A DNA stretch of 64,000 nt, taken from Owenia fusiformis. Lineage: Eukaryota > Annelida > Polychaeta > Sabellida > Oweniidae. Positions 2,915-59,400 of this stretch are shown piece after piece. Positions within the stretch are counted from its first letter, which is position 1. Every line of letters starts with the position of its first letter. The position numbers and the translations under genes are program-made. The notes under the pieces are model-generated. The model did not search any database. It was given only the letters and a program-made list of their open reading frames with translations, and was not told the DNA's origin. The stretch spans positions 8,311,098-8,375,097 of the forward strand of contig CAIIXF020000001.1 in NCBI GenBank assembly GCA_903813345.2, read 5' to 3'.

Positions 2915-3000
2915 GGGAATGAATCATACCGTCACAGGAAACAACGAACAGATAACTTCCTAGAATTAACATCAAGTATTTCAATGAGCTGCATACAAAT

Positions 3001-28615: not shown

Positions 28616-31600
28616 ATGGACCACAAAAAGAGGTCAGAATCCAAAAAGAGCCTTTCTAAGCCAGGGGGAGATATTCGAAAGTGTGGGTACTTGAAGAAGT
28701 TGAAGGTAAGTTGAATATACTTACAGGGGGTGGGGTCATTGTGTTGTTGTTGTGTTTGAAAGAGTGACAATTCAGTCGAAACCTCAGGAAGGAAAGACAT
28801 GGGGAATGATCATTAGATAGCAAACTAGGGAGAATTAAAAACAAGGAAGGCAACTAAGAAGGTGGCAGCTTGTGAAAGCTTGTGTGGCACCACACCTACT
28901 TTCTCTCTGGAGTGTAAATCATAAGAGAATTCATTGAGACATTGACATTTATCTTCCAATTATCAGAAAACTTTCTGCATTGCCTGTTCATATACATCTT
29001 ACCTCAGTTGATTCTAAAAGCTTGTATCATTTCTGTGTTGATCGATACCATTGGCTTTCTCTTAGAAGCCAGTGTCGACTGTCGATACATACAGTCCAGC
29101 TTTGCTCATAATACAAGTTAAGTTCACAATTGTATTCGATAAATATGTCTCAAGGGAGTAGCTATTTTTCTTAAGATCAACATTTTTAAGTTTCAGTTTT
29201 TATTTGGATTCATTACAAAATATTAACAAATTATAGTTTGAAATGCTTAGAATGCACCATATACAAATGTCAATTTTGAAAAATTTCCGGCAGTGAATCC
29301 CCATACCCCCCTTTTGATTTCCTTCTCTCGCAGTATGTTTCATAGTAAGTCTTTTATTTTAAATAATACAGTTGTTTGAGACTTTTTAGAGGCCGTGCAA
29401 GGAAAACTAGATCTGGAAAGGAGTGGTATCGATATGGAGAACTTTTTGAACACACGTTTCTCTTAAACCAGTCATAAAAAAATCTAAAATTTTACACATC
29501 GTCAATTTAATGGTCATCTTTTGAATGGTAACAATATAATTTGAAAAATATATATATACTTTCATCTATATTGTTTTAGAAAACACATGTTTTGTTCTTG
29601 GTATCATGTTTCCAGAGTGAAATGAAACATCTTTCCGAACCTCATTGGAACAAAATGACATAAACACAACATGTTTAGGTCTCTCAATATTGTAATTGTA
29701 TAAAGGAAATTTTGGTTGATTTTAAAAAAGTATCTTGTTAATGAAATAAAAGGTTTATCTTGATTTTTATCTATTTTTGGGGGATTTTGTTTTAATTTTT
29801 TGAATACTTTTTAAAAATCAACCAAAAATTCCTTTGTAGCTATAATATTAAGAGGTCTAAAAACATGTTGTATATATGCTATTTTGTTACAACAAGGTTC
29901 GGAAAGACATTTTATTTCATTCTCAAGAATTGGTAGAAAGGAGCAAAAACAATTGCACTAAAAAAAACAAAAAATGTTAACAAAAACAGTTATATAAAAT
30001 ATTTCTAAATAATCTTTGCATTAAATTGTTGTCAATCAGTCAACATTACATAAAATACCGTGTTTTTTACAGAATGTTTTCAATTATTGGTTTAAGAGAA
30101 AAACATTGTTGAATTCAGTTCTCCATATCGATACCACTCCTTTCCTTTTTTTGCTGGAAATGTCGGGGAAATTCATTTTGAAAAAGGTGTACGAACCCTG
30201 TTATACTCAAATTGAATAAAATAAAACAGAATTTGGAATATAACATAATTATAGTAAATGTTTTTCTGATTCGACATTTGGAAAGAGTATACATGTCATG
30301 ATATTAAAGACTGGATTTCCATTTTGGATATATTTTCTTTATGACAATTTCTTATATCAATTTGACTCCATGTCTTATGTTACTTTCAGACGATGAAAAA
30401 GAAGTTTTTTGTACTGCGTCACGAGATTGATGATCAACCAGCTTGTCTAGAGTATCACGATACAGAGAAAAAATTCAAAACAGGACATGCACCGAAACGA
30501 AGAATTGATTTACCTTCCTGTTTAAGCATCAATCGTAAATCTGATCCCCGTCATAAATATGCCATTGCCATATATACAAAAGATGACTGCTTTTCTGTGC
30601 TGTGTGATAGTGAGAGTGGAATGGAGGAATGGCTAACTGCAATGCTAGAGATGCAAAGTGAACAAGTTGAAGGGGCAGAGCCATTGAAACCATTATTTGG
30701 TAAGTAATCTGACCATTGCCATAAACAGTTGTTTGTTACCAGAACTTGTAGCACAAAGTAACAATACAACCGAAATGATACTTTCATCAAATTCACCAAT
30801 AATTCATTCTGTTAATTTCTCTTTAGACAAAGGTTAAAAGTGAACCCAAGGTCAAAAACTACTTAGCATACCAGGGCTCTCCCAACATTGAAATCTCTGT
30901 CCGCTCTGAGGTACAGCACCTCCATAATTATATTAAAATGTTCCTTTAATATTTCTATGCACTCCATAAAATCCTCAATAAAAAAACATAAAAATTACAA
31001 AACCCTAAAATGTTGTTTTAAAAATCCTCCACACAAAATTTTTTTAGGGAGAGCACTGTATACTGTATGCAAAGTCTATGTTTAAGGTCAGACATACTCA
31101 TAATATAATTGCATGCAACCGTCAAGTGATATAGTGAGGGCATTGACTCAGCAGTTGAAGTGACAATAATAATGGAAAAGTTGATAATATATCATAGTAA
31201 GAACTGATTGCCCAATTATCATTTGATTTTCAAGTGTAGATTCTTCACTTATGCCTTGCTATGCTTTGAATAAATGAACAGTTTCTTTGAGATATTCTCA
31301 AAGTATATTTTTATTTCACCACCAAAAGTGGTGATTGTAATAGTCTTCAACTTTGGTGGTCAGCATTCGGCATCTGTAACCAATCTTACAACATTCATAA
31401 CAACTTTCAACTTACCAGACTGTTACATAACTACTGTTAAGATTGACTTCAAATTTTTACTGTGAAGATATGTAAACATGTTATGAGTTCAAATATATTT
31501 CTGCCAATACCTGTTACTAGAATACTCATGCATCAGATATTTTTGCGGGACGGGCCAGAAAAAAAGTGTGCGAAAAAAAGAATGAGTTTTTAATAATATC

Positions 31601-34600: not shown

Positions 34601-37600
34601 TATGCATATGCAGTGTTTGTTTTCAAGAGGAATAGACCGGAGGTCACGTAAAGGTTAGGGTTGTTTTTGAGAAATGATTACCACAAAAATGTTTGAGGTT
34701 GTCTCGATTTCTCTTAAAAGATATTTCACGGCGGTCATGTTTATGTTTTATCGCTATCAAACACAGAACTAGGTAAAATATGTAAATTGGACTTCTTATA
34801 TTCAGTTGGTTATATAAAATGGATCAACTTGTTTTATTATAGTAGGATATTTCATAGAATTTATTACACTTTTCTCAGTTAGTTGCAAGAGATTATAATA
34901 TGCAGGAAGGTATTTATTGGGATAATTTAATTTTACCACATTTGATGTACATTTTGTTATGGGAAATTGAGGTTTTAATTTGTACTAGTTAACTTTTGTA
35001 CTTGATTTGATATTCTTTATTTATTTCCTCCATTTATGTGTTGTTTACCATGTGATGTTTTAATGCTAATGTTTCAGTGTCAGTATTGAAAAACATTGGA
35101 TCCATAAAAGCTGAATTTTCAGATTGCTAGTATGATAGTTGAAATGGCCTCATTGAAGAAAATGATGTTTTCCATATTGTAGACAAAACATATTCAACAA
35201 TGCATGTATAATCAGAAATATTACATCAGTGTCATTGATCGGCAATATAGGGGAGTGCCTCCTGCTTGAATGTGACTGATACGAAAACAACATATTTTTT
35301 TAATATGTACTTCAAACACTATAACATACAGTACTTTTATGGGAAATAGGTACATCTCTTGATTAGTATATTCTAATCTATTAGATCTATTTTAGTTGCT
35401 GGGGGAAATTGAGGTGAAATGATGATGCCATAACATTCAATCTCTTGCATAATACATGGCTTATGTTCAATAATCTATGCAATTCAGCGTTCTAGCCAGG
35501 AATTAGGCAGAAAAATTCTATCGGGATATTGGTAGTTGTTGATAAAAGGCTCACTTCCCTACAATAAAATTTTGTCTTAGCAAGCAGGAAACATAAGTCC
35601 ATTTCCCTTATATGATAAACCAAATACACCTAATATGTGAAAGTTATCCTTGAGGGATAGAGAAGCCATCAATCTTTTACTGTCTGTTTTCTGTTCATTC
35701 ATTTGATAACTCAAATACTGATTGACAGATTTAGTTTAGGCATTGGACCATTCTTAATAGTGTGTTACAGCTACCCTAAAGTGACAATGTTACAACCCTT
35801 TTTACTGTATTACAGTCATTTTTAACTGTATGCTACACCCATTCTTGACTGTATGACATAGCATTTTTACTGTATGTTACAGCCATCATAACTATGTTAC
35901 ATCCATTTAATAAATTTATGTTACATCCATTCTTACTGTATGTTACGTTCATTCTTACTGTATGTTACAGTCCTTCTTACTATATGTTACAGTCATTCTT
36001 ACTGTATATTATAACCATTCTTACTGTATGTTACAGCCATCTTAACTATGTTACATACATTTAATAAATTTATGTTTATTTTTTTAACTATGTTACAGCC
36101 ATTCTTACTGTGTGTTACAGCCATTCTTACTGTATGTTACAGCTATTCCCATCTGTATGTAACAGCCATTCTTACTGCATGTTACAGATATTCCCATCTG
36201 TATGTTACTTCCATTCTTACTGTATGTTACATTCATTCCCATTTGTATGTTACAGCCAATCCCATCTGTATGTCAGTGATTCTTAACTATGTTACATCCA
36301 CTCATTCTGTATGTTACTTCCATTCTTACTGTGTTTTACATCCATTCTTAACTGTATGTTACAGAGCATGTGTGGCAGGTATCAGTGCGTAACAAAGGCC
36401 TTGGGAGCAGTAAGAACCTGGTGGGAACCTACAGACTCTGCCTCACCAATGAACTACTCACCCTTGTCAAACTAAACAATGATAAACCAGAGATCACATT
36501 CCAGGTGAGAAAGGATAAAATATGTGCTCTTTCTAAAGCCAAGCTGCCTGTTAGTTGTTGAAGACAAGATTCATTGAAGATATAGAATATAGAAATTCAC
36601 TTATATTGAATATTGAAGTCAACTTTTTATTAAGTTAATTTTGAAGGTTTACTGGCAGTTACTAATTCAGAAAGGAAATGCAATTTCAATTATTGTTCAG
36701 TTGTTATTTCACTATGACAGTAAAACCTGTCTAAGTGGAACACTTTTGGTAGTGTTCCACTTGGGAGTTGTTTGACTTATAGAGATTCATTAAGCATTGA
36801 GTCATTTAGTCATGTGACTCAGAAGTGTTCCACTAATAGAGGTGTTCCACTTCCACTTTACAGGTTTCACTGTATATTGTTTCAGCTGGCTAGTATTCGA
36901 AGATGTGGTCACACTGATTGTTTCTTCTGTATGGAAGTGGGTAGATCTTCTGCCACAGGACAGGGAGAGCTGTGGATGCAAGTAGAAGATGCTATCATTG
37001 CACAGAATATGCATGAAGCCATACTCAGGTATGTTTAACTTAAATCATAAAACATGTTATTTGTGTTATCAGTAGTGAAATTATATCCATATAAGGACCA
37101 AGGTACAAGTAAAGTTAAGCATGCTGATGAGATTTAATTGCACTTAAAAAGTGTTATATTGCTGTCACCTTGTGCTGAAATTTTCTAAATATTTCTAATT
37201 AAAACATGTATTTATTATCACAATTCCAGGAAAACACTTATTTTTAGTCCAAAGTCTGTACAGATGTTAGAGGGTATACGTTTCTACCTTTTTTGTGGCT
37301 ATATTAATTTTTGCGGAAATTTTCAATTGTTTCAATATTTATTATCCCGATTCCAGAAAAATGCACTTATCAGATTTAGGTATCCCACCAAAGGAAATTT
37401 GGGTAGGGATATAAATAAGCCATTTATTCATTTGTCTGTCTGTTCATCTGGGCAATAACTGAAATGCTAGTCCCCTGATATAGTTCATATTTTATAGGTT
37501 GATACCTTATTGGCATAGAACTAGATAAAGAATGAATTTCTAATATGGCTGCTCATTTCATAATGGCCACCATTTTCATAAAAATATACTTTTTGATGAA

Positions 37601-40600
37601 TTAAATACCAGTTGAAAAATTTGATTCAAATTTTATGTCACATATGACCTCTGCTTAAGTAGTTTTTAAGGTAGCCTCTGAATTCAAAATGGCTGAGTAA
37701 GAAAAAATGTAATTTTTCATTTCTTTAATACCAGTTGAAGAAGTTTGTTCAGATTTTACATTGTGCTGAAAAAGGGATTTTCAAAATGGCTGTATAATTC
37801 AAAATGGCCACCATTTTTCAAAAGAAATACATGATACCCATTGTCAGATTGCTCCAAATTTCAAAGGCTAATGCGAAAGAATTTCTTGAATGAATACATC
37901 ATGGGTGTCAGTTTTGCCTAAAGGAGACTAAAGGAGTACTATTGCCTGGGAACTAGTTCTATCATGTAATGTTCAAAATAACTTGTGAGGGATTTGATAA
38001 AGATAGGATTTGCTACTCTTGGGAGTTGCTATGTTTTTATGCCTGTTTTTCTCATTTCAGCTCCATGAAGAAGATTGATAAAGAACAGATGCAGATGGCA
38101 TTGCCAAAGTTTCGTACCAGAAGTCACAGTTCTGCAACTGACAAGGGGAAACTGAACACTAGTGGCCTTTCAGTGCGCAGTGGAGGGAGCAGTCCTGTGC
38201 CTTATCTGCCTGACCCAGCACTGGCCCCCAAGAGATCAAAGACCATCAGCGAGGGACAATGTGGAAGGTATGTAGGACAATTTACAATCTACTCTAGTAG
38301 CTCTCACAGGAGAGCCTGAACACCTATTGGTAGATTCATTTTATAAATTGATTTTAATCCTGAGTTGCTTTTCTGCCTCCAAATTAAGGTTACCATGATT
38401 GGAGTTTAGTGTTCCCCCAAGGTTTGAAGCAATTTGTGCTCCAACAAGTTGTGACTTTGAAAATAACCTCCAATCCTGTGGAAAATCTATATGCACCCAG
38501 TTGAAAATGACAATGTTATAACCAGATTTGTACATTTTTACTCTGATTGTCACAACCAATATAATTCACCTAATTTGAAAATGAGCCTGAGTTGGGGAAA
38601 AGAGACATTTTGTGTGTTACATTGACCAGGATTTTATTTACCCATCCTAGAGTGTGACAGTACATAGTAATTCCCAATTGACAGAAAAATCACATTTTCC
38701 TGTTCAATTAATTCAGACAAAGCCACCTGATTTGTAAAATATATAATTTACGATGAACAGCAGGTGAATCCTACAATTTTATTAACAATCTTAGTGTCTA
38801 AGAATTTCTAAACCTCCTCTAAATCCATGTCATTCATCTTCAAATTCCCGAAGTGGAGTGTGTATATGGATGAATTAAAGAACCTCGATGCAAGACAAAA
38901 CGGTCTTCAGAAAAACAGGAAATGACTCTCAAAGCTCATAAATTATCGAGTGAAGTCTACGCAGACCCAGAGGGAATTTCACATACAAATAAACCAATTA
39001 ATATCTGTTCATTATATCAAACCCAGACAATCTGCCAAGTAAGCGCCCAACAGCTAACACTATTATCTCTCTTTTCAATGAATGTCTTGTGTAATATAAC
39101 TCTATATCAATGAAGATTGATGAAATACAGAACAATACATCATCGCACTGAGCTTGTTTTATGAATGAAGGTTCATCACTTTGATAAACATTCATTCATT
39201 TTTGTTGAAAATAGAAAATATGTCTTGTAAATTCATGAATTGTTATTGATGTCATTCTGACAATAAGGATATATAATAACTTATTGTAATTATTATGTTG
39301 CACAATTTGCACAATCAATTATCTGTAGTTTATTGTTTTTCTCTTTATTATGTTTCTTTTAATTGAACCGATAGTCAGTTTTTAGAATCATATAATATTG
39401 ATGTGTTGATAACTTCTACAGGGTGGTCCCAAAAAATTGGAACATTTGATAATTGAACTCAAAATCGTTATTTGTTCTCTAAAATGCACCAACATTTTAC
39501 TGAGTATTGTTCAATCACTTATTTATCTGATGTTAAGTTTATAGGTGCAAACAACAAAGTTAATGCATTAAACTAGAGAATGTTTTATATGACCCCTTTT
39601 CTCCTGAATTACAAGTTGAAGCCTGGGACTCAGTTTTGAAATGATTCATTCACATTGCTGTTCGTTAGATTTTGTCCAAACCATCTTGATTAAAACATTC
39701 AGCTTAAATGTTTGCCTTGGAAGATCAAATATATGAACATATTCACCTTTTTTACCCAAATTGATGGGTATCAAGCATATTTTGATGGCTGTTGTTGGAT
39801 ATATTACTGATTGAATATTGTCCAGAAAGAGGCCAGGGCAGTCTGTTTTGACTGGTAAATGACCCCCCCCCTCTTGTTCTCATATGAATAATATTCATTG
39901 AATATATGTATATCAATATCATTAATGAGTTTCCCAGAACACAAATGATATATTATATTATATGTGCTTAGAGGTGGTCTTTAAATAACTGGTCAGTGTC
40001 CCCTTTACTGAAAAGTGCAGGTGGAAACAATGATTTTGTCAGTTTAGTAGCTGTATGGGTTATGGAATCATTCACCTCTGACATGTTCTTTCTTTCCTAC
40101 TCTTAAATAAAAATAATGATTTTAGGTATTCTTAAGTTGACAATAACACAATAGTTTTCCAATAAACCAAAGGTGTTAATACCTCATGTCAACTAAATAT
40201 GATTTTATAAAATGTGTATAGCAATCAACATGTTCATTAAAGCTTTGAAATAAAGAATACTTGAAAAAGTAGCTGTGAAATTGATATATTTAAGAAAATG
40301 GGGTCATATCAAACATCGATTAGTTTAATGCATTAACTTTGTGGTTTGCACCTATAAACTTTACATCAGAGAAATAAGTGACTGAACTCTGCTCAGTAAG
40401 ATTTTGGTGCATTTTAGAGGTAAAATAAAGGTTTTGTGTTCAATTAACAAATGTTCCAATTTTTTTTGGACCACCCTGTAGATAACTATGATTTGATAGG
40501 TGTAAACGATGTTCAGCATGTTTGTATTTTGGTACCTATGTTGTTATATAAGTAACATATCCCATTTCAGGCCCAACCCGTTCCTTTATCACCACTTGTA

Positions 40601-43600
40601 TTTCAGTATGTTGTGATAGTTCAGCACCCATGTTTAATCCCCAAATCTCTGCACTGTACACAATCAGTGTGTTGTAGTGCAAATTACAGGGTTAACACAA
40701 CTATGGTTAGAAACATGAATTCCAATTTAACATGGGCAACTTGTTTTTCCAAGTTCATTGCCAAGAGTGAAAAATGATTCGCATTGCCATTGACAGTGAG
40801 GCAGCTGTAAGTTTTGAAGCCTGCAGCAAATTCCAACCCCTATAACTCTGCACTGTACATTTCAATATGTCGTGATGGTGCAGATCCCATTAAAGCTCTA
40901 CACTGTATATATGAAAAAAGTTTGTTCTGTTCATTTTAACCTCCCTATTTCAAGACTGTATTAAGTTTGTTGTGATGTTGCACCCCTCATTTCAAGGCCC
41001 ACAACTCCACACTGTTTATGTCAGTAATATGTTGTAATATTACAGCCCCCGACGTCATCGCATTACCCCAAAGTCTAGAGAGACTACTTCAGAGCTGAGA
41101 CCAGTGAGCATGTTTTCGAGAGCCCATGGTTCTCACTCCCCCCATAGCCCTGCGGGCAGTCCTCTTGTTAGGTCAGTATAACACTAGGATGCTTGGAGAG
41201 ACATGCATGAGAATCTACAAAACTACATTTTACTTCTGCTTTGCATGTTGACATCTTGGTGGTTTTTGCAGATATCAGCATGCTTTAGTCCATTATTATT
41301 TAGTTAAATGCATATTTGCTTCTTTTGTTTGCATTTCCTATTTAGGTTTAATCATGGAACCGGATTGTTTGTGCCCCATCTTTTCTCACTCAGATATATA
41401 GGGACACTTAGATATACTTAAATCATCCCTCATCCTCTGCTATTTATGCATGATTACTGAAGAACTCCTTATTCTGTATTATTTATGCATACATGGGTTA
41501 AGGCCACTTAAATCATCACTTTATTAAAAATTCCTCGTCCTATGCTATTTATGCATGATTACTAAAAGAACTCTTCATTCTATATCACTTATGCATTTTG
41601 GGGTAAAGACCGCTTAAAGGAACATTCCTGGCCAAACCTTTTCTATCCTGATGTGATAGCTATAATCATATATACTTTCCATATTTAGCAAAACATAGGG
41701 AAATGTTTTAATATAGTCAATATTGATAATTTAAAAATGTAGTGCTCATTTCCAGTAAGCTGCCATCTTTTAAGATTTTACTCAGGAAGTGATGTCATCG
41801 ACTCTCAACTTTCATGACCTTGCATATAACAGTATAGGAAAATAGCACAATATCACTTCTAGACGAGTGATCCTTACTTTATGCGCAAAAATATGTTCAG
41901 AGCTTGTCAGCTTAGAATAAAAGAAGAGACTTTTAGAAGGATTAAATCATAGACAAAATTGAAAAAGAATATTCAGCTGGTTTTGTAATTCTTAATAGCT
42001 CCTTATAGTGTTATATGCAAAGTTGAGAGTCGATGACATCACTTCCTGAGTGAAATATTAAAAGATGGCAGCCTACTGGAATTCGGCACTACATTTTCAA
42101 GTGATCAATATTGACCATATCAAAACATTTTCCCCTGTTTTGCTAAATATGGAAAGTATATATATGGTTATAGCTACCATATTAGGAGAAAAATGGTCTT
42201 GCCAGGAATATTCCTTTAAATCATCACTTAATTAAGAACTAACCATTCTATGGTATATATGCATCTAAGAAACTCTTCATTCTATATTATTTATGTATTT
42301 ATTGGTAAGGCCACTTCAACCATCACTCAATTAAGAACTCGTCATCCTATGCTATTTATGCATCATTGCTAAAGGAACTTTTCATTCTATATCATTTACT
42401 GGTATGCATTTTTGGGTAAAGGCCGCTTAAATTATCACTTAATTAAGAACTCCTTGTCCTTATGCTATGCTATTTATGCATCATAACTGAAATTCTTAAT
42501 TTATGCCATGCTAAACATTTTGGCATAATTTAGTTCTAGGCATTTTGAAAAAGCTATTGCCAATATTAGATTTTTGGCCCACCCCGTATATACCAGTGTT
42601 GGTGGTAAACAAATTATAATACACATCAATATATATTTTTATTTAGTCATATCGTTTATGATAATCATTTATCATTAATATTTATAAGATTTATTTTATT
42701 TTACCTGCACAATACTGGTTGAATTATTTCGGGAAGAGAAAAGTAGTAGTATTTTTATGAGACTCCACTGTTGACCAGGCAAAATTGATGGGATTACTAA
42801 TAATTTTAACAACAAATACAATAAAATGTACATCACTATTGTTTCAGTATAAGAGGATTGGAGGCAGAGCATCGGGCCAGATCTGACAGCATGGACTCAA
42901 GGGGATCTCATGCCTCATCAAGGGGAACTAGTAGTAGTGTTTCGGGGGAGGAGGTCGATGGAGACATTATGCTGAGGTATGGACAAGTGTCAATTCATAT
43001 TAGAGTGGCATTTGATGAATGATGCATTCCAGCAAATAATGTAATATATTTGTATGTTTTTGGAAGTTGACCCTGGATATTCAGGTTATGCATGGAAACT
43101 CATTGAACCCTTTGCTTGTGTTCATTTATATTCAGTTCGTCTAGTACTGTTTCGTGAATGTTTATTACATATCGAATATGATTATGCTTTCAAATGTCTG
43201 TCATTTCCCTAGTCAGCGGTAATCCACTCTAGTGTCGCTTTAAAAAATGACAGTTGTGCGTCACATAAAAAATTGTTATTTTCGCTGTATTAGCCAAATT
43301 TGAAACAAAATGATCAATCCCTTCCACTCCCTCATTTCTGCATTATATCTGCGCATGCTCGCATATTTAATTAGCAAAATAAATGGCTCCCGACAGCGAA
43401 TTGTCAACTCGTGAGTTTTTCAGCTAATTTCTACATTTTTCGAAATGAATTTCGTAATATGCATAGTGTCGAGTGGTAGAATGATGTTTTAGGACACTGA
43501 ATGTGTTGTTTTTTTTCGAGGGGTATGCGCAGGAGCTTGAATCTGAAGAAAAGACACCAGGTCGTAACATCCATAATATGAAAATAAAAATGGCTAACAT

Positions 43601-46600
43601 CTGTGAAAACGACGGGAAATTGTTGCTGTTTTCCTTGTGCAAACATCATCGCTGAAATGACCTTGAGATGAGGCGGCAATTTTCTGTCGTGTTAGCATGC
43701 TACGCATCTAGGCTCATATGTGTACATCATTATTTGCGACACTAACAGTTCATGTACCAGGCGACACTTGAGTGGATTACCACGGACTGTTCAAACTGAC
43801 TTTTTATTATCTATTAATATAGATTTTTTTTTAGATATTTGACATGTCTATAACTTGATAGCATTTGATATCAAAGAAATTCTCATCCACCTGTGCAAAA
43901 CTATATTATATTATTGTTATTCCAGGTCAATGACCCCAGATATAAACGAAGATAATGAACAGTATTTCCATATGGGATTCCACAAATCAAGCTCAGGTAT
44001 AAAAGAAAGTTTAGCAATTTGTAGTTATATGTCACTACTAGAAGTGGTGACATATTGTTTTATTCTCCAACTTTTTGTGGACGGTGTTTGGCAGTGGTGG
44101 TGACATTTTGCATGTTAATGCCTTAAAGTTTTGTGTACAGTATATTATTACATGTACATGTTATACCATGAATATAAGCTCAACAAAATTTTACCTAGCC
44201 ATCCTCCAGCTCAAATATTTGTTTAACCTTTTGGGCACTTGAGTATTAGAAAATCTTGACCATGATATACACATCATTAGCTCTGGAGCAATTACTGAGG
44301 AAATGCACTGCATTTCTGTCTAATAATTTGTTGACCAGCTCCATGTGAGGTCCCCTGTTCAATTGTATAATTTGTTTTGAACATTGCTGTTGCAGAGAAC
44401 TCAACTGTGAGGTCCCCTGTTCAATTGTATAATTTGTTTTGAATATTGCTGTTGCAGAGAGCTCAACTACTGACACATCATCTATACCTGGTTACATGGA
44501 TATGAGGCCCGTGTCTCAGACTATTCCCACACCTGTACTAAAAGGTCCCGATGACTATATAGACATGTCCCCAGCCTCCACACCCAAGCCTTACATGGAG
44601 ATGTCAATGGGCAAAGCTGCAGCTCCAGGTGAAATATTTAATACATTGCATATACATGTAATCAATACTAATTACTAAATATTATTGTACATGTAATATT
44701 GGTACATGTATTTTATGATCAAAGTATAGACACACTTTATTATTGTAGAAAACATATTTTTGAAAAAGTACTACTTAGGAACTGGACCTTGGAATATACT
44801 AAATGAAAGGTGATCAAGAGTAGCATTCTGAACCACTCATTGATACACTGTTTGCATCATGGGTTTTATGAGAATATGCATATATATATACTTCCACTTC
44901 AACAAACTCCGCTTTTCATTACATGTATTTCTTTCTGAATTGTGACCATGTACTGAAAATATGAAAATGAAAGTTGTTTTTTGTAAACATTTAATGTCTT
45001 AGTACACAAGACAGTGCATTGTTCGTTTGATTCATTTTAGATGCCAAAGAAGGTTACATGGAAATGACTCCTTCTACAACTCCTAAATGTGAGTACATTT
45101 TGCATTGTAAATTATACAGTAATTAATGTTAAGCATCTATCGATGATATTGGACATGTTGTTTATTCCCAAATGCTTGATCATTTATTGGAGGATTATGC
45201 TTCAGAGGAACACAACACAGTAAAAAGCTATTTTTAGCATTCAAAACTAGATCAGTATATTAACACAACAATCATAAAAACACTCAAAATTTTCAACATC
45301 ACATATTGTGATTTGCTTTAGCTGATACTGGTGCTTATTTCGACATGTCTCCTGGAGTGGCGCCAACTCAGCAGAGTCCTTACTTGGATATGTCTGTGGG
45401 AAGTAGTGCAAGCAACACCCCCTCGAGCCTCATACTTGGCACCTCACCATCTAGACGAGACATCATTTCTGACTCAGGAGGTTATTTTGACATGTCCCCA
45501 ATGTCCCACTCTCTGCCAACAGTGTGTGAAAAACCAGGTTAGCATCTGACTAAGACAAGAACATAGATATTATATAATGATAAACTACCTGTTGATATGT
45601 CAAGTCATTTTATCTTAAACGAGTAGAAAAAATAATTCAAAGAGCATTTGAAGTTAAATCTGACTGGTCTAATGATTTGTAGTTGAGTAAAACGATGGAA
45701 TCAATGAGTTTCAATTATTAAATAACCTTTGACCAATGCTATGTATCTTTCAATATATATTCCTTGTTTGCATCTCCAGCGGCTGTCGAAGCAGGGTACA
45801 TGGACATGACTCCAAAGATGGCTCACAAAGACCCTACCATCCCTGAGGTGAGCCGTCCTGACAGAGTAACCAGTTTCCTCGTAGATGATGGAAGTCTCAG
45901 TGATTTTAGACCAAAGTCATTCTCGGTTGGTAGTCGCCCTTTGAAGAAGATCCACCATCAAACTGCTCCTTATATGGAGGCAATAGCTCAAGAGGGATCA
46001 TTAGAGAGAGATAACAAGAGCTCCAGTGCTCCTCACCTTACCCCAGACCAGCAGATGAAATCCCAGAGTAGCTCTTCTATCCCAGCACATGCTTCCTCCA
46101 TGAGTGGCATAAGTAGCAGCAGTTCTGGCCTACAGTCCCACTCAAGTAGCATGCAGAGCCATAGGGATATGTCTGATCTCTTCATGGAAATGGAGTTTAA
46201 CATGCGACCAAGAACATCCAGCGATACATGGTCCCAACAACACAGACCACGTACAGGAAGTGATAGCTATGGTCAGCGTCCACGTGCCTCGAGTTTCACT
46301 CAGAAAAATGACCTCAGACCTCGTTCATCGAGCTATGGCCAGAAAAGCACTTGGACAAAACCCCAACGACGCAGGTCGAGAGATTCCAGTATGAGCTCGA
46401 ACATAAGCATGGATTCCCAAGAGTTGCAGTTCTCATTGAATACCTCACATGACTCTATGCCCCATATGGCCTCTTACAGCTCCTCTGAGTCTCTAGGTAA
46501 AACCTCTACCCCACGATCAACTCACTCCGATTATATTGGTATGGGAGGCCCAACAAGTTCCCCCCGATCTGATTTTTTAAGTGCTACAGGGATAGGTGTA

Positions 46601-49279
46601 TCGCCCCTTGCTGTATCTGATTACATGTCAATGGGTAGTAGCTCTTCCTCGTCACCACCCAAGCATAGCAACAGCAAGCCTAAATCTCCAGGGCCTGGTT
46701 CTGATGTCTCTGGCTATATGATAATGTCTCCACCTGAACTACCAGAGCCTGGTGATGTCCATGTACCACTTGCTACTAGCAAACTCTCACAGCACACAAG
46801 ACACTCAAAACACAAGCCAAAAACTGATCCTAGGTACCCTAAGAATTCTGGGAGGGATAAACCGGGATTAAAAGTTGAGACAAGTCCTCTGGTACGTGCC
46901 AGTAGTCTCCCAAGCCCCGGTGCTTATGTTAGCTTGGATTATAACACCCCCAAAATAACGACACCCAGAACTGAACAGCATAAAGTGAAGTCCAAATCAG
47001 ATTTGCTAGCAGCAGACAGGAAAAACACAGAGTCCTCTCCTAAATCCCAGCCAACATTGCCCTTGCCTAGCAGGACTCAAAATACTGGAGCTGAGTCTTA
47101 TGTCATTTACTCACCAGGAAGTACTCAACCCAAGTCTACCAGTCCCCACCAAGCCATAGGCAAACCTCCTGGACACGATTATGTCAATATCAGTTTATCA
47201 AAGAAGGCAGAGACAATAGAGAAAAGTGGGAACTCTCAAGTCGACACAAGTGAAGTCCAGAAACGTGTTACAAAGAGGAAACCAGTTCCCAGTGTTCGGA
47301 AAAGTGTAAAGTCAAAAAGTAAGATTGCAGTTGATGACAAGACACAAGCAGAGGATTCCGGTGTTAAAGCAACTGACAATAGCAAAAACACCACTGGGGC
47401 ACCTAGTAGGGCTCTTGATGCTTACGCGGACATGTCACATGTTAATGTAAAGAAAGACTTCATGCAGACAAATGTACCACAATATGAACTTAAGGCTGTA
47501 GAACCCACCAATAGTTTAGAAAAGAAGACATGTAAGGATTCTCATAACTCATCTAAGAAAACAATCGATGATGCTTATTCAGAAATGGGTCCTTTTACCA
47601 AATCACCCAGTAGTGTAATAAAGGACTCGAGTACAGATGCTTATTCTGTGATGGCCCCATTTTCATTACAAACAAAAACTCCCAAAGTTTTGGTCAGTGC
47701 TTCAAAAGACACAAATGTTGATGCTTATTCTGAGATGGCCCCCTTATCACTACAAACCAAAACACCCAATGTGTTTGTAAGTGCTTCAAAAGACACAAAT
47801 GTTGATGCTTATTCAGAAATGGGTCCTTTTACATCACAAACTAAAACAGCCAAATCACCCAGTAGTGTAATAAAGGACTCGAGTACAGATGCTTATTCTG
47901 TGATGGCCCCATTTTCATTACAAACAAAAGCTCCCAAAGTTTTGGTAAGTGCTTCAAAAGACACAAATGTCGATGCTTATTCTGAGATGGCCCCCTTGTC
48001 ACTACAAACCAAAACTCCCAATGTGTCAAGTAGTGTATCAAAGGACACTAGTTTTGATGCCTATTCTGAGATGACCCCTATTTCAGTACAAACTAAAACT
48101 AATATAAAATCTCCCAGTAGTGTAACAAAAGACATATATTATGATGCTTATTCTGAGATGCCCTCTTCAAAAGTATCTACCACAAAGGACAATAGTTCTG
48201 ATGAATATTCTGAGATGGCCCCCATGTCACTACAAACAAAATCTTCGAAAGTGTCAGGTAGTGCCTCGAAGGAATCAAGTTCTGATGCATATTCTGAAAT
48301 GACCCCTGTATCATTACAAGCACAAAGTAATTTAAAGAAGGACTCCAGTAGTGACATATATTCTGAAATGGCTCCCTTAAGTAAGTCCGTCAACAAGGAA
48401 GCTCCTCCGATGAGACAAGACATGAGTCCAGGGTTATCTTCGAAGATACCTCACCAAAGTTCCCAAGAGGATTCATATACCGAAATGGCTCCTATAAACA
48501 AGAAAGGATCTGTGAAAATTGGAAAAACTGATGTTAAAATCTCAATGGTAAAGAAGGGTGCAATGAGCAGTCCTAAAAGTAGTAGTGCTTTACAGAAAGG
48601 AACCCCAAAAGCAACCAGCCTAAGTCCAAGTCCTAAGCCAGATCGTGCTACAAGCCCCCTAACACAAAGGCTTAAAGCAGAAGGAGCAAGTTCCAAGAGC
48701 CCTACTACATCCAAGGCCATTGAACTATCTGCCAAAAAGGCTGGTCTACAGCCCAATTTGCAAATGACCCCACTATCTATAGACTTAGGTACCGATATCG
48801 ATGCTGACTTGTCTCCACGTTCAGATGCCAGTCCCAGACAAGCTACAATAAGTCTACCTCGAGTTAGAAGTGGAGGTTCCTTAGGCGATGCTATCCCTAA
48901 GCGGGGTAGCTCTTCAAGCCTTTCAAGTATTGGATCTGGGGACAGAACCAGGCATTTTTCAGGCGGGGCAATATCTAAACAAAGCAGCCTCTCTAGTACA
49001 AGTGAAGATTCTCCAGGAATCCGAAGCCCAAAGGTCTCCAGTCTTAGTCCTTCTATAATGTTTCAAGCCAAGTCTCCAAGGTCCTCACTTGGGGAGAAGG
49101 AATTGAATTATGCGGCCCTGGACCTATCTGATTCTCTACCCCCCAAGTCACCCCTCTCATTGAAGAGTAGAAACTCATCTAATAACAGTGAAGACAATGA
49201 ACCACTGTCATATGCCAAAATAGACTTTGAAAAGTCTGGTAAGCCAGACACTTCACGATTTGAATTTGAGCTGTTATAA
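28616..49279 (+). CDS. IRS: Insulin receptor substrate (IRS), complete, 12 coding exons
   Basis: Exons: 28616-28705, 30390-30699, 36365-36504, 36886-37028, 38061-38267, 41046-41171, 42848-42976, 43926-43996, 44458-44628, 45041-45088, 45322-45537, 45780-49279. All introns are GT..AG and every phase joins, giving 5151 nt (1716 aa plus TAA). The start is [12 protein letters not shown]. The PH domain (about 22-127, from IRKCGYLKK) and PTB domain (about 138-240, with [32 protein letters not shown]) are followed by a long Ser-rich tail with 25 YxxM motifs that would bind p85 SH2 domains. It also has YVNI (Tyr1018, Grb2-type) and a C-terminal pair LNYAALDL (Tyr1661) and LSYAKIDF (Tyr1695), resembling the SHP2-binding tail of vertebrate IRS. 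It is a docking protein under insulin/IGF receptors. It is clearly longer than vertebrate IRS1 (about 1240 aa). Confidence 0.95.
29394..30160. repeat. About 750-bp imperfect palindrome in IRS intron 1
   Basis: GGAAAGGAGTGGTATCGATA near 29,415 is matched by its exact complement near 30,140. Inner blocks also pair: TTCCGAACCT at 29,633 with AGGTTCGGAA at 29,896, and TGGTTGATTTTAAAAAAGTA with ACTTTTTAAAAATCAACCA either side of about 29,780. The whole element folds on itself. Boundaries are approximate and there is no target duplication. Confidence 0.65.
30390..30699 (+). CDS. IRS: IRS exon 2: PH domain
   Basis: Joined in phase to exon 1 (LKKLK then [12 protein letters not shown]). It carries the remainder of the PH fold: [11 protein letters not shown], then [20 protein letters not shown], where the tryptophan is the conserved C-terminal helix residue. 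The PH domain brings IRS to the membrane and receptor. It ends in phase 1 before GTAAGT. Confidence 0.93.
33777..33921. repeat. Hairpin-forming inverted repeat, about 56-bp arms
   Basis: The left arm 33,777-33,834 (starts CACTGGTGATCC) and the right arm 33,866-33,921 (ends GGATCACCAGTG) pair with only a few mismatches around a 31-base spacer. GAACCGTTTTGGTAAC-type words recur inside. It is probably a MITE of foldback form. Confidence 0.7.
34066..34133. repeat. 68-bp near-perfect palindrome
   Basis: Runs from CACGGAGCGGTAGCC to GGTTACCACTCCGTG and is centred on CATACTATGCATAGTATG with no spacer; only about four positions break symmetry. CCCCAGT/ACTGGGG words further out suggest a somewhat larger inverted-repeat element. 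Confidence 0.75.
35765..36364 (+). repeat. Minisatellite of about 21-bp units ending at the exon 3 splice acceptor
   Basis: About 25 diverged copies of a unit close to CATTCTTACTGTATGTTACAG fill this stretch. The last copy, ending in TTACAG at 36,364, is itself the 3' splice site of IRS exon 3. Each unit has a pyrimidine-rich part and ends in CAG, so it resembles an acceptor. Confidence 0.8.
36365..37028 (+). CDS. IRS: IRS exons 3-4: PTB domain
   Basis: Exon 3 (36365-36504) gives [20 protein letters not shown] and [16 protein letters not shown]. Exon 4 (36886-37028) gives [39 protein letters not shown]. This is the phosphotyrosine-binding fold that recognises NPXpY in insulin/IGF receptors. 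Both 3' splice sites are crowded by repeats: a minisatellite before exon 3 and a pogo-like MITE before exon 4. Confidence 0.93.
36718..36872. mobile_element. pogo-like MITE just before IRS exon 4
   Basis: Ends CAGTAAAACCTGT and the complement of CAGTGAAACCTGT (right end GGTTTCACTG, then TA). Inside are inverted AGTGGAACAC/GTGTTCCACT words. 155 bp, noncoding. It ends 13 bases before exon 4. Confidence 0.7.
37029..38060. other. IRS intron 4
   Basis: No coding segment. Around 37,520-37,820, phrases such as TTCAAAATGGCCACCATTTT occur several times with variations, which suggests a degenerate dispersed repeat. Confidence 0.5.
39419..40478. mobile_element. Tc1/mariner-type non-autonomous element with about 185-bp inverted repeats
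   Basis: Starts CAGGGTGGTCC after TA (39,417-39,418) and ends GGACCACCCTG before TA (40,479-40,480). The inverted repeats stay alignable for about 185 bases each (for example AAAGTTAATGCATTAAACTA near 39,560 and its complement near 40,325). The interior has no transposase. It lies in the IRS intron between exons at 38,061 and 41,046. Confidence 0.85.
41405..42500. repeat. Five tandem units of about 100 bp, interrupted by a MITE
   Basis: Units begin near 41,420, 41,508, 42,219, 42,318 and 42,430. Each has the order AAATCATCACTT, then a TATGCTATTTATGCAT word, then TTCATTCTATATCA, then GGTAAAGGCCGCTT. The TTAA-flanked element at 41,618-42,215 sits exactly between units 2 and 3. Noncoding, in the IRS intron after exon 6. 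Confidence 0.65.
41618..42215. mobile_element. TTAA-flanked (piggyBac-type) MITE with about 210-bp inverted repeats
   Basis: TTAA at 41,614-41,617 and 42,216-42,219 flank ends AGGAACATTCCTGG and CCAGGAATATTCCT. The inverted repeats extend about 210 bases, sharing AGAGTCGATGACATCACTTC and its complement. TTAA duplication is the hallmark of piggyBac transposition. No transposase inside. Confidence 0.8.
43211..43789. mobile_element. TIR element in an IRS intron
   Basis: GGTAATCCACTCTAGTGTCGC near 43,218 is inverted at GCGACACTTGAGTGGATTACC ending near 43,781. The inner GCGACACTAACAGT also pairs with ACAGTTGTGCG-type sequence. The interior is noncoding, with locally higher CpG. No clear target duplication. 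Confidence 0.6.
44345..44468 (+). repeat. 62-bp tandem duplication spanning the acceptor of IRS exon 9
   Basis: 44,345-44,406 and 44,407-44,468 are nearly identical and both start GTGAGGTCCCCTGTTC. Each copy contains TTGCTGTTGCAG and the first 11 bases of the exon. Use of the second acceptor (exon from 44,458) keeps the frame. Use of the first (from 44,396) reads into TGA about 45 bases later. Confidence 0.85.
45780..49279 (+). CDS. IRS: IRS terminal exon (1166 codons)
   Basis: One 3.5-kb exon from the acceptor CATCTCCAG to TAA encodes two thirds of the protein. In order: GYMDMTP; Ser-rich stretches; four RPRxxS repeats and an RSRDSS site (about 46,205-46,385); YIGM, YMSM and YMIM motifs; YVNI; a Lys-rich stretch ([17 protein letters not shown]); YADM; the 12-unit YxxM array (47,567-48,490); and the two C-terminal SHP2-type tyrosines. 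The frame is fully open, which argues for selection on so long a repetitive exon. Confidence 0.93.
47567..48490 (+). repeat. IRS: Coding tandem array of 12 YxxM units in IRS
   Basis: Twelve units of about 19-38 codons, each with a D(A/E/I/S)Y(S/T)(E/V)M core: ten YSEM/YTEM and two YSVM, at Tyr1150 through Tyr1450. Most are followed by (A/G/T)P(F/L/M/I)SLQTK and a SASKDxxx linker. A two-to-three-unit block is repeated with an offset of about 234-252 bp (47,582 onward versus 47,821 onward) at high nucleotide identity, so the array is still expanding. All units are in frame. Confidence 0.9.
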
Positions 49280-53499: not shown

Positions 53500-56400
53500 T
53501 CATCTTTTTAATTTGGCTTCTACTGCCTTATTTAGGCACTGTTTAATAACAGGGTGCAGTTTTCTAGCAGTGTCCAGACATTGCTTAAGTGCTTGTTTTG
53601 CGCCATCTATTGAGAGTTCACCTTTCTGTATAATGGATGAGACTTGGTTGATAGAGGGCATAAGAGCAACTGTCATCATCGCTTGAGATGTTTCATTGGA
53701 CTTCTCGTCTGACTGCAAATAACAAATAAAAACAGAATTATCAATACTGGATATCATCATCGCTTGCCAAGCATTCAAAGGAAATGTCAATCAAACATTA
53801 TATGCATGCTCAGAAGAATCACAGATTTCACCATTTTCAGAAATATAGTCTGTATTTTCTGAGTTTGTCAAAATTCTGCTGTGTGATTTCTTAAGGTCAG
53901 TTATCATGTTATGCTTGGCTGTATTACTCTTTGTCAGCAATCACATCAACTTTACATTTTCACAGAGGCGAAAGCAGACAGGTGAGAAAAATGACAAAAT
54001 AGGGCATTCTTGGTTAATTACAAGACAGCCATTTTGAATTCTAAGGGCAAATAATACGTATCACTCCATTGGCTGATTGGTATAATGTTAGAATACTTAC
54101 CTGTGACAGAGATCTGTGGGATTCTTCATCTGTAGTGGGGTCAATCAAAGACCTCTCCCCAATCTGCCTCTATAAGTAACAAGTACCAGGTCATTCAATA
54201 AGTTCACAGAAAAATTCTCTCATTTCACCATCCCAAAAATATCTAAAATTTGAAACAACAGCATTTTTCCATGAACTTATTGAACGACCTGGTAAATACA
54301 ACTACTCACACATTTCATTCATTGGATGATTTCCTTAGGTTAATTTAATAATAATTCTCTAAATGGAAATACATTTCAGAACACTTCCTATTAAACCTTT
54401 CTGCTGACCTTTCATAAAAATAAATGATTAATAGTGAAAATCAGTACATTCAGTCCAAGGTAAATACTAAACATCTTAAAATACTGAGAATTACTGCTTT
54501 TAAGTGCAAGCTACCAATCTCAAACAGCAGTGTACAGTGTTGCTTATCAAGCAGGCTGTACTCTGTTTTAAGAGTACTACATGAGCATCATTTCCAAAAC
54601 AGTATTGTAACCCTGCCAGAACAGCTACACAGTACTGTTTTGATCAATACCAAGTACTGTGAGGGGGAATTCAATAATGATGCTGAATAAGGGTGTATTT
54701 ATAAAACTAACCAGTGAGCAGCCTATTACAACATCATACATCTCCATTCCAGCATCAGCTACAGCCACTGAGCCACATGTGATTGCAGCAGCCAGAGCTG
54801 AAAGTACATTACATGTTAAAAAGTGAAGGTTAATTAAGGAAGGACAATATGAAACTATTCAGCTATTAGTTGCATACAACTACTTACCAATAAATCTTTT
54901 TATTATCAACAAATACAAAGATAATCAGTTCAATAGTCTTTGAGTAACACTACAGATAAAGATAATCAGTTCAATAGTCTCTGAGTTACACTACAGATAA
55001 AGATAATCAGTTCAATAATAGTCTTAGGGTAACACTACAGATAAAGATAATCAGTTCAATAATAGTCTTTGAGTAACACTACAGATAAAGATAATCAGTT
55101 CAATAGTCTCTGAGTTACACTACAGATAAAGATAATCATTTCAATAGTCTTTGAGTAACACTACATATAAAGATAATCAGTTCAATAATAGTCTTTGAGT
55201 AACACTACAGATAAAGATAATCAGTTCAATAGTCTCTGAGTTACACTACAGATAAAGATAATCATTTCAATAGTCTTTGAGTAACACTACAGATAAAGAT
55301 AATCAGTTCAATAGTCTTTGAGTAACACTACAGATAAAGATAATCAGTTCAATAGTCTTTGAGTTAAACTATAGATAAAGATAATCAGTTCAATAGTCTT
55401 TGAGTAACACTACAGATTAAGATAATCAGTTCAATAGTCTCTGAGTAACACTACAGATAAAGATAATCAGTTCAATTGTCTTTGAGTAACACTACAGATA
55501 AAGATAATCAGTTCAATAGTCTTTGAGTAACACTACAGATAACGATAATCAGTTCAATAGTCTCTGAGTTACACTACAGATAAAGATAATCATTTCAATA
55601 GTCTTTGAGTAACACTACAGATAAAGATAATCAGTTCAATAGTCTTTGAGTAACACTACAGATAAAGATAATCAGTTCAATAGTCTTTGAGTTACACTAA
55701 AGATAATCAGTTCAATAGTCTTTGAGTTACACTACAGATGGATGGACAGATGAATGAAGGGCTTTGCTATATTATCCCATTCAAACTTCATTCATTGTTT
55801 TTCATAAAACATTGCTTTGTTGTGATAAAGGTTTTAACTGCCTCCCCTATAATGAAGTTGATCTTTGAGTTAGTCAATTGTACTCACCACTCCCTCCATC
55901 TTGTAAGACTGTAATAAAGATTTCTAGTCTGGCCTTTGGGAACTTATCCTAGAAAATACAACGTTCACTTGTACAGTTATGAATTTAGATTTGTTAGCTT
56001 ATAGGCAGATCAAAGATGAATTTGTGGAGACAATTGTTGTACTGTTGCATTAGTCAGTATTATTAGAAAATATACAATGTATACTTAGAGAAAGACTGGG
56101 AAATGTAGCATACTACATAATGGTAAATTGCTTTAATTTGATGATACCATGTGGCAAAGGGAAAACTACTTTTAGTGTTTAATTAAAGAAACATATACCT
56201 AATTCAAAAATCAGCAATCAATGGATAACATCACAAGGCAATACAAAAAAATTAATTTTCTGATGGTACAGTATACATCTTACCAGTCTAATTGCAGGCT
56301 TTAGGGCTTCTAAGATAGTCATTGATAATTCCTTCTCCCGATCATCCTCTATGTGTTTCTGTCGAGTCTTGCAAGAAAATGTGGCAAACTTAAAGACACA

Positions 56401-59400
56401 TTTTACCTGTCCTGACATCGTGAAATCTTCTCTCTTCATGACCTCCCGTGGACCATAACTAGAATCGGACATAGACTGAGATAACAACAAAACATACCGC
56501 CCATGACTTACTTTAAATAGATCTACTAATATAAATTGAATGAAAAGTTCTATGGAGTAACTCCAAATTAATGTAAACTTACACTGCAGCGATGACCTTC
56601 GTGTCAGCCATCTCAATGTAAGCTGAGCCCTTAGCCTGACTTATAGCACCTGCCTTCAAATCTGAAACAATAATTGGAGGTATATCATCATCCTGGTATT
56701 AGTTCTGCATTGTAATACTGTATCTATAGACTGCGATTTCAGTAACAACAGTCTGTTCTCCCTTACTGATGATGGATATAAATTGGGTTAGACTATTTAT
56801 TTATTGTGTATGTTATGTAAGATTATGTATGAAATAGGTGCAAAATGTATGCATCTAGAAAACCAATAGCATATTTGAACTATAAAACAATAAATGTATG
56901 AACTCTAGTACTCACATGTTGGTCTGTGTTGGTTAGCTTCTCTTCCATCTCTCCTCTTCCCATTCTGGTTGACCTGCAAGTATATAAACATTGTGAAGTA
57001 TAAATGACCTGCATATGATGTGGGAGCACATGAACGACCCATCAAAAATCACTCCCATTACTAGTAGAGTGTTTGACATACAAATAATACGGATTGTAAA
57101 TCTGTATATACTTACCCTTAAGAAAAAACGCTTGTTTTCTCCTCATGTGGTTAAAAGATGACCTTTTTTAACCACATTTTTACCACTCAAGATATGTAAA
57201 AGTGTGGTTGTGGTCACCTGTTTTGACACTCCTAAAAGTGTGGACCCCACTGGTATTTCTTCCACAGTTCCAGGAAATATCTCTCCATAGTTTCTCCTCA
57301 TAATGAGAAAGTGTGGTCAAGGTGTTACCAAAACTATGGAAGAGCAGGACATTCACCTTAATATGATTTAAGGTTACCATATTATTTATAGAGGTTAAAA
57401 GGGTTAATGCTTGTTAAATAAATTTTTGGATTTACTGTAGATGATATTCTGGTATCTAAATTGTTTCATGCATCTTTTTCATCATCAAACAAATATTTTA
57501 TTAAACATATGTGACACAAATGAGAATGTTGTATGATTGAAGCATGACTTATTTGTCTCAATTATTATTGATTTATTGGTGTATATTTTAATCATCAAAC
57601 TAAATGTCTAAATATAGGACCAAATATCTGGGAAACAAAATCAAAATCAAAATCAACCTTAATTTTTATTCACTATCAAAGAGGATGATGTTTGAATATG
57701 ACTATTCATCGTTCATTGAAGGCTGTATGCACCTTTCACCTGATTGTGACCAATGACAATTCTGCAGTAAATTTTGTGAAACATATAAAAAGTGTAAGCA
57801 TTGGAGATTAATAACAGTAAATAAAAAAATGAGCATTTGCTATTCATACCAAGGTTAAGATTGAGTCTATTGCCAGGTAGGATGGGTTGTTCTGTTATGA
57901 GAAATCTAACAATTTTAAGCAGTGTAAAAACTAAATTGAATTAAAAGAATTCCATTATATATAAAAACCACTGACCATACAATTCAAAGGTGTGGGTCGG
58001 GTGTGGTAAAAGTGTGGTTTGGAGATGGTATAAGAGCAGTACAGGTATGGGTGATGTGCAATATGAATAATAAAAAGTGTGGACTAAAAGTGTGGGGAAA
58101 GTGTGGTCTTTAAGTCAACAAACCAAAAATTGTTTACATAAGTTATAACAACAATGTTTAGTTCCACAGCTAGGACAAAATGAGTTTATTATTCAGATCT
58201 GGATCAGATATAGATTTAATGAAAATTAGCATCTAAGATCAATCATTATACTTATAATTATTTATCATGTAATTAATTATTATCAAATAATTATTAATGA
58301 TACTGAAAAAGAGACACATTGAAGTGACGAGTCTGGACTGAACATACAGAGGCAATCAGAACATGCCACCTAGATAGATATCATATTTTAGTACATTTTT
58401 AAGCACAAAATGTACAGAAAAGTATCATTTAGATGGATTGAATTATCAGTTAAAACTCCTTACAAATCTGAAATATGGTCCCCAAGCACAATAATGTACA
58501 TTGCAAATGTTTACAATAAGGCAAAGTTATGTTAGACCTTCACTGAAAATAGAAGAAAAATACACTTCGACCAATTTACGAAAAAAGGATCACATGATTA
58601 TGAGTATAAATATCTCCCACAAAATGCATCAAGTTGGGTTGTTGCTATAGAACAACATACTATCAACCTTTGGTATCAACTTAAACTGTGTTTTTCAGAA
58701 TCTCATAGTTTTTACTAAAACTGCTTTTAATAATCTGTCCATATAACTGTAGCCTTAAGGCTTAGGGTGATTAAGTACAAAATATGTCATGGAAAATATA
58801 CTGATATTAATGGTTAAATAAAAATCACATTGCTGGGTTTCCTCATTTGCAAGAATATAAGGTTTTTGAAAAGATATTTAGGACTTAATTTTTCCACAAA
58901 GCACATTCTTGAATGTGTAATAACAAGTTAACTGACTCATTGAGCTATTGTTTTTATAAACATATCAGCAACATCCTTTTCTTATTTAATCATTAGATTT
59001 AGACTCTTGATTAGAATTATAATCTCATTATTAAAATTAACATTGATATAATTCAAATAAATTCACTAACTACAGGTATTACTTTAATTCTTGTGACTCT
59101 TCAAGTCTTTGATGTCTAAGAAATAATAAAATCATGTCTGGACTATATTTTAACATATTGATTACATGTATTTGTATCCTTTTAATACAGCAGACACATC
59201 CTGTTATTCTTTAATATTAGTCTCATAATAAGATTAGTCAGTTCAGTCAAAATAATCTTCAGTTTAGAGTAACTAATTTTAAATACTTTGTTTTATATTC
59301 ATGCAAACTTCTGATCTACCTAAATAGAAAAGTCGAGCATCAATCCCGGGAGCATCATTCATTTGCCTCTAATCCTTATGTCATTTTACTGAAATATTTT

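Follow-up and report, generated by a model that had tools for sequence, protein, structure and literature searches.

The 64,000-nucleotide window analyzed here, a stretch of the genome of the annelid Owenia fusiformis (contig CAIIXF020000001.1, positions 8,311,098 to 8,375,097), carries on its plus strand a gene for an IRS protein whose long C-terminal tail contains a tandem array of YxxM motifs. The coding span runs from 28616 to 49279 and is divided into 12 predicted exons (28616-28705, 30390-30699, 36365-36504, 36886-37028, 38061-38267, 41046-41171, 42848-42976, 43926-43996, 44458-44628, 45041-45088, 45322-45537, and 45780-49279), joined at GT/AG junctions with agreeing phases. This model was derived from sequence alone, the start codon and the untranslated exons being predictions, and when spliced it gives 5151 coding bases with a single stop at the end, yielding a protein of 1716 residues. 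The joined first 624 residues, searched against Pfam, contain a PH domain (exons 1 and 2, 28616..30699; PF00169, E value of 4.2e-8, profile positions 2-100 of 105, 34.1 bits against a cut-off of 25.1) and, C-terminal to it, an IRS-type PTB domain (exons 3 to 5, 36365..38267; PF02174, E value of 2.4e-20, profile positions 2-91 of 92), both complete across the exon junctions. The PH-PTB part matches the human IRS1 structure 1QQG, including the PH part of that structure, with an E value of 3.4e-66, and the PTB domain matches the human IRS1 PTB structure 1IRS with an E value of 3.5e-38. Three features of the IRS family, an N-terminal PH domain, an IRS-type PTB domain after it, and a long tail with YxxM motifs above chance, are all found here. 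An earlier note on this DNA had called the protein an IRS, and the two domains and the 1QQG match bear this out. The plus-strand gene is a true IRS gene, and its YxxM array has been expanded by repetition and has a composition of its own.

Tandem repeats were also seen at splice acceptors of the gene. Intron 2 contains a tandem array with a 22-bp unit (35787-36363) that reaches as far as the acceptor of exon 3 (36365), the first PTB exon. It holds 11 copies of TTACAG and 6 of TGTATGTTACAG; in both cases the final copy is the acceptor that exon 3 uses, and these repeated acceptor-type motifs therefore provide several decoy acceptors upstream of exon 3. A 62-bp tandem duplication (44344-44467, 60/62 identical) extends across the acceptor of exon 9 and places a second copy of it upstream, from which reading in the phase of the exon hits a stop, as judged by eye.

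Exon 12 (45780-49279) is one uninterrupted open frame through the array, and the repeats are in frame, as the earlier note had described them. In the spliced model the protein has 25 YxxM motifs, 13 dispersed and 12 in the array, the same count as first reported. The tyrosine codons of the dispersed motifs lie from 43963 to 47423, and those of the array from 47576 to 48476. The dispersed sites begin with a cluster of nine spread over exons 8 to 12 (43963..45808; tyrosine codons at 43963, 44493, 44556, 44592, 45055, 45336, 45381, 45483, and 45797), followed by three more (46532, 46622, and 46715, within 46532..46726) and, as the thirteenth, the YADM of a DAYADM sequence (47423..47434), which may be the founder of the array. 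The array starts shortly after DAYADM and lies between a YVNI at 47180..47191, labeled a Grb2-type site by its likeness to residues 896-898 of human IRS1, the letters of which we take to be YVNI, and the C-terminal sites YAALDL (49109) and YAKIDF (49211), spanning 49109..49228, which we assume to be SHP2-type from their likeness to the C-terminal sites of IRS1. When the 1489-residue tail was shuffled 20,000 times, the mean was 1.66 YxxM motifs and the maximum 8, against 25 observed. The same number of shuffles gave a mean of 0.67 and a maximum of 5 for the 312-residue array stretch, and a mean of 1.05 and a maximum of 7 for the tail without that stretch, which has 13 motifs. Methionine stands at +3 of 25 of the 41 tail tyrosines.

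The array (47570..48490, plus strand; supported by repeat finding, shuffles, codon comparison of the units, and a unit profile) consists of 12 units built around DAYSEM, all of them in exon 12, starting at 47570, 47636, 47720, 47804, 47888, 47972, 48056, 48143, 48200, 48284, 48353, and 48470, and placing 12 YxxM motifs within 307 residues. Tandem Repeats Finder gives the DNA a period of 84 (28 codons) and a higher-order period of 252. The gaps from tyrosine to tyrosine are 22, 28, 28, 28, 28, 28, 29, 19, 28, 23, and 39 residues, so that the units, which had been described as evenly spaced, are so only roughly, with 6 of the 11 gaps at 28 residues and the others departing from it over a range of 19 to 39. 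Near identity, likewise claimed, holds for the motif and not for the linkers. The unit profile recovers each of the 12 units that it was built from; elsewhere in the protein it found no convincing extra or decayed units, the five further matches all having negative bit scores. A lost unit may lie concealed in the 39-residue gap that precedes unit 12.

Judged by comparison of the copies, most of units 1 to 3 (47570..47770) and 4 to 6 (47804..48022) is evidently the product of a recent duplication of a three-unit block. Units 1 and 4 are identical at 29/30 and 36/36 positions on either side of an 18-bp gap, and 47636-47770 matches the stretch 252 bases downstream at 130/135 positions, beyond which the identity drops to 22/33. 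Taken together, the unit pairs 1/4 and 2/5 differ by 3 synonymous changes and 1 nonsynonymous change. The pair 3/6 shows 6.2 and 6.8, respectively, because the second half of that pair lies outside the recent block copy. The recent copy suggests that the array grows by in-frame block copying, and its copy number may vary between individuals. The disorder ascribed to this region in the earlier note is plausible from an AlphaFold model made without an alignment, which is of low confidence throughout the array (mean predicted local distance difference test [pLDDT] score of 39.9; none of 323 residues reaching 70), but is not borne out by the charge-hydropathy plot, which does not place the array on the disordered side (|R| of 0.016, boundary of 0.053). 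Pattern searches for relatives of exon 12 gave 4 matches in viral_contigs and 22 in genome_contigs with none confirmed in either, both being nonanimal collections that are uninformative on animals. Two minus-strand open reading frames that lie over and next to the array (48148-48450 and 48451-49062) were rejected as genes; they have no Pfam match at an E value of 0.01 and look like shadows of the coding exon.

The array sites, judged by their residues, are a class distinct from the dispersed sites and not a mere multiplication of them, a point newly noted here. At +1, 12 of the 13 dispersed sites have M, F, I, or L and none has serine or threonine, whereas every array site has serine or threonine and none has one of those hydrophobic residues. 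Aspartate stands at -2 in 12/12 array sites and in 2/13 dispersed sites. At +4, serine or threonine is found in 2/12 array sites versus 9/13 dispersed sites (Fisher P value of 0.015, with no correction for the common descent of the units). Among the dispersed sites, GYMDMTP and GYMIMSP are similar to the mammalian IRS-1 peptides GYMPMSPG, DYMPMSPK, and GYMMMSPS at Y608, Y628, and Y658 (PMC5903866), in which +4 of Y608 is Ser612 and +4 of Y628 is Ser632, the human Ser636. In rodent IRS-1, Ser612 and Ser307 are phosphorylated when Tyr608/628 phosphorylation falls; phosphorylation of Ser612 by the JNK/ERK pathway accompanies reduced phosphorylation of Tyr608 and Tyr628; S6K targets human Ser636 (rodent Ser632); and loss of mTOR, Raptor, or mLST8 abolishes Ser636/639 phosphorylation and stabilizes IRS-1 (PMC10814773).

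Tyrosine and methionine are kept in all 12 units, with zero differences at their codons, and aspartate at -2 (12/12), serine or threonine at +1 (12/12), and proline at +5 (11/12) are also kept, while the insertions and deletions in the array fall within the linkers and preserve the frame. Over all 12 units, the six motif codons have a ratio of nonsynonymous to synonymous differences per site (pN/pS) of 0.14, versus 0.70 for the linkers, with similar pS values (0.55 and 0.59, respectively); these figures include units 11 and 12, where the linker alignment is poor. Those two units, with linkers that could not be aligned, were excluded from the column test and the trees, and unit 7 was trimmed of one inserted codon to fit a 28-codon alignment. 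In that alignment, pN/pS for motif versus linkers is 0.11 versus 0.62 for 10 units, 0.20 versus 0.52 for the 7 full units, and 0.15 versus 0.55 for 6 units, and the conservation of the motif was equaled by six randomly drawn columns in 42, 262, and 185 of 20,000 draws, respectively. A tyrosine-methionine codon pair evolved neutrally on the linker tree, with manually chosen base frequencies and transition bias close to the fitted ones and with the linkers assumed to be neutral, retained every tyrosine and methionine in 18/20,000 simulations for 7 units and in 0/20,000 for 10 units, the mean number of units losing one or the other being 4.4/7 and 7.4/10. The tyrosine and methionine codons thus appear constrained relative to the linkers, so that the selection test for which the earlier note had asked, and which might have come out otherwise, agrees with its expectation; the random loss of these residues that was to speak against a function is not seen when the units of this single gene are compared with one another. 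Since the units share history, the selection figures are only guides; since the key residues were kept while the linkers changed, the array is suggested to work.

According to PMC5666700, human IRS1, IRS2, and IRS4 have 9, 7, and 7 YXXM motifs, against 25 here, and the Grb2-type site of IRS1 lies at 896-898; the "roughly nine" that the earlier note gave for vertebrate IRS1 is correct for human. These mammalian proteins share with the Owenia protein the PH domain, the IRS-type PTB domain, the long YxxM tail, and a Grb2-type site between dispersed YxxM motifs. In the Owenia protein 12 YxxM motifs stand in a tandem repeat with serine or threonine at +1, whereas the listed human positions are irregularly spaced. 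The Pacific oyster (Crassostrea gigas), a lophotrochozoan, has a single IRS, of 1400 residues (PMC8156652), a comparison made by description only, in which the extract of that account makes no mention of YxxM motifs or repeats. BCAP (PIK3AP1) is likewise a cytosolic adaptor that recruits p85 by YxxM motifs; the mouse protein has four, and the extract of PMC7982423 mentions no array. The nearest design, and the one most alike in working, is the substrate domain of p130Cas (BCAR1), a likeness that is not family membership. That domain has 15 YxxP repeats in 306 disordered residues (PMC3983058), a dense array of phosphotyrosine motifs comparable to the 12 YxxM motifs in 307 residues here, and its multiple phosphorylations are required for migration (PMC5043372). 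Crk and Nck read the p130Cas motif, whereas p85 would read the motif here. p130Cas/BCAR1 is defined by an SH3 domain and a C-terminal FAT-like domain (PMC5043372); a Pfam search of the whole protein (first 624 residues and exon 12) allowing E values up to 0.1 found no SH3 or FAT-like domain and gave only PH and IRS. In the extracts of PMC4443775, PMC3895810, and PMC7982423 no IRS array is described, and none came up in searches of the open-licence literature, the subscription literature and animal sequence databases lying outside that scope; such arrays may therefore be common in this clade.

We give a probability of roughly 60% to the array being a working, repeat-expanded docking region in the IRS tail for the p85 subunit of PI3K. 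The PH-PTB part would bring the IRS to an insulin-type receptor, the array tyrosines would next be phosphorylated, and the two SH2 domains of p85 would then bind two adjacent array sites. The identification of YxxM as the p85 SH2 motif stands, and high-affinity activation of PI3K requires two phosphorylated YXXM motifs bound simultaneously (PMC5666700). The spacing between adjacent human sites is 20, 30, and 23 residues (612, 632, and 662; 989 and 1012; PMC5666700), close to the 28-residue period of the array. Because of its serine or threonine at +1, an individual array site probably binds less strongly than a dispersed site of the YMxM type. The low affinity rests on the consensus of the p85 N-SH2 domain, whose preference departs from YS at +1. 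With serine or threonine there in the array and hydrophobic residues in the dispersed sites, avidity built from weaker sites is likelier than a multiplication of strong ones; the graded or high-avidity recruitment of PI3K first proposed is partly supported, with the amendment that the array sites differ in kind from the dispersed ones. The array would add avidity and capacity, filled under strong or sustained stimulation, and it may partly escape Ser/Thr feedback, since most units have no serine or threonine at +4, the position of a regulatory kinase site in mammalian IRS-1. We hold as a tentative and rather doubtful extension that the units form a second PI3K docking class, weak YSEM units tunable by copy number and partly insulated from feedback, that determines how high PI3K output can rise and how long it lasts.

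Several points weigh against p85 docking by the array, or against the details proposed for it. Some of the YS-type units may be poor p85 binders. The P value of 0.015 at +4 ignores the shared ancestry of the units, and a serine or threonine followed by proline at +4/+5 is not significantly different between the classes (2/12 in the array versus 6/13 dispersed, P of 0.20). An article mentioned in PMC10814773 found serine phosphorylation dispensable. As for constraint, the 7-unit set is matched in motif conservation by random six-column sets in 262/20,000 draws, and the linkers also contain fixed columns. The tyrosine codon is TAT in 12/12 array sites, against 6 TAT and 7 TAC in the dispersed sites, and this uniformity may reflect homogenization between units, which would inflate the apparent conservation.

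The uniform TAT codons also favor a passive expansion, in which a stretch with a YxxM motif was multiplied by slippage or unequal exchange and the extra copies are idle, as do the recent three-unit duplication and the richness of this gene region in tandem repeats. We consider it quite unlikely because of the contrast in pN/pS between motif and linkers and the outcome of the neutral simulation; the confinement of insertions and deletions to the linkers, with the frame kept, argues in the same direction. Near-identical blocks are prone to misassembly, and donor-like signals occur at 47531 and 47944, but it is very improbable that the array is an assembly artifact or is spliced out of the mRNA. 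The block copies differ by substitutions and by the 18-bp in-frame gap. With splice-signal weights derived from the 11 introns of the gene itself, exon 12 has two acceptor-like signals at least as strong as the weakest of the gene, both upstream of the array (46480 and 46590), and no such signal was found in the exon downstream of it; splicing out of the array is therefore not favored by the sequence.

Other binding partners have to be weighed against p85 as well. The distinctness of the array sites, with serine or threonine at +1 in 12/12 against 0/13 dispersed sites and aspartate at -2 in 12/12 against 2/13, would suit another SH2 or phosphotyrosine-reading partner, selected by D at -2, S/T at +1, E/V at +2, and P at +5. 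That p85 is not the main partner is nevertheless unlikely, with the methionine at +3 that marks p85 sites fixed in 12/12 units of a protein from a family of PI3K adaptors. The earlier note had read the motif for PI3K only and had not considered the clathrin adaptor AP2, whose mu2 subunit binds the Y608, Y628, and Y658 sites of IRS-1 in crystal structures, tyrosine phosphorylation being unnecessary, with the effect that receptor endocytosis is slowed (PMC5903866). The Yxx-hydrophobic pattern fits all array sites, which could in their unphosphorylated form restrain receptor endocytosis as in mammalian IRS-1. Yet the +3 residue of a mu2 ligand can be any of several bulky hydrophobic ones, and of the nine possible point changes of an ATG codon six lead to I, L, or V; none of these three residues is seen at +3 in the 12 units, where methionine is invariant. 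AP2 also leaves the aspartate at -2 and the serine or threonine at +1 unexplained. It is improbable that AP2 binding is the main role of the array, although the array may have a dual role with p85 and AP2.

IRS proteins couple insulin-type receptors to PI3K, and the effects of the number and strength of docking sites are difficult to dissect when nine sites are scattered through the protein. A naturally occurring IRS with its sites multiplied by tandem duplication, in which the conservation of tyrosine and methionine can be read within the repeat itself, would offer a direct way to relate array length and strength to PI3K/Akt output. If the array forms the tunable second docking class suggested above, array length would be an evolvable gain control of insulin signaling, differing between species or individuals, and if copy number varies it would act as a simple genetic dial on growth factor signaling.

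Elsewhere in the window, a single-exon DEG/ENaC channel gene lies on the plus strand (2956-4713; PF00858, E value of 2.8e-51). Its closest PDB matches are the FMRFamide-gated sodium channels 7yvb and 8on7, presumably mollusc and annelid proteins, a likeness that makes a lophotrochozoan source likely. A broken LINE-like retroelement on the minus strand (489-1933) has two pieces that match the reverse transcriptase family RVT_1. Also on the minus strand, 53500-53790 and 56218-56640 probably belong, as exons, to a gene of the exosome RNase PH type; the latter has a weak RNase_PH match (E value of 1.4e-4, 22.8 bits against a cut-off of 25.5), and the former we take by eye to be such an exon. Tandem Repeats Finder, the source of the tandem arrays reported for the window, also detected two minisatellites, one at 54917-55739 (41 bp in 20 copies, 91% matches) and one at 61898-62317 (44 bp in 9.6 copies, 95% matches).

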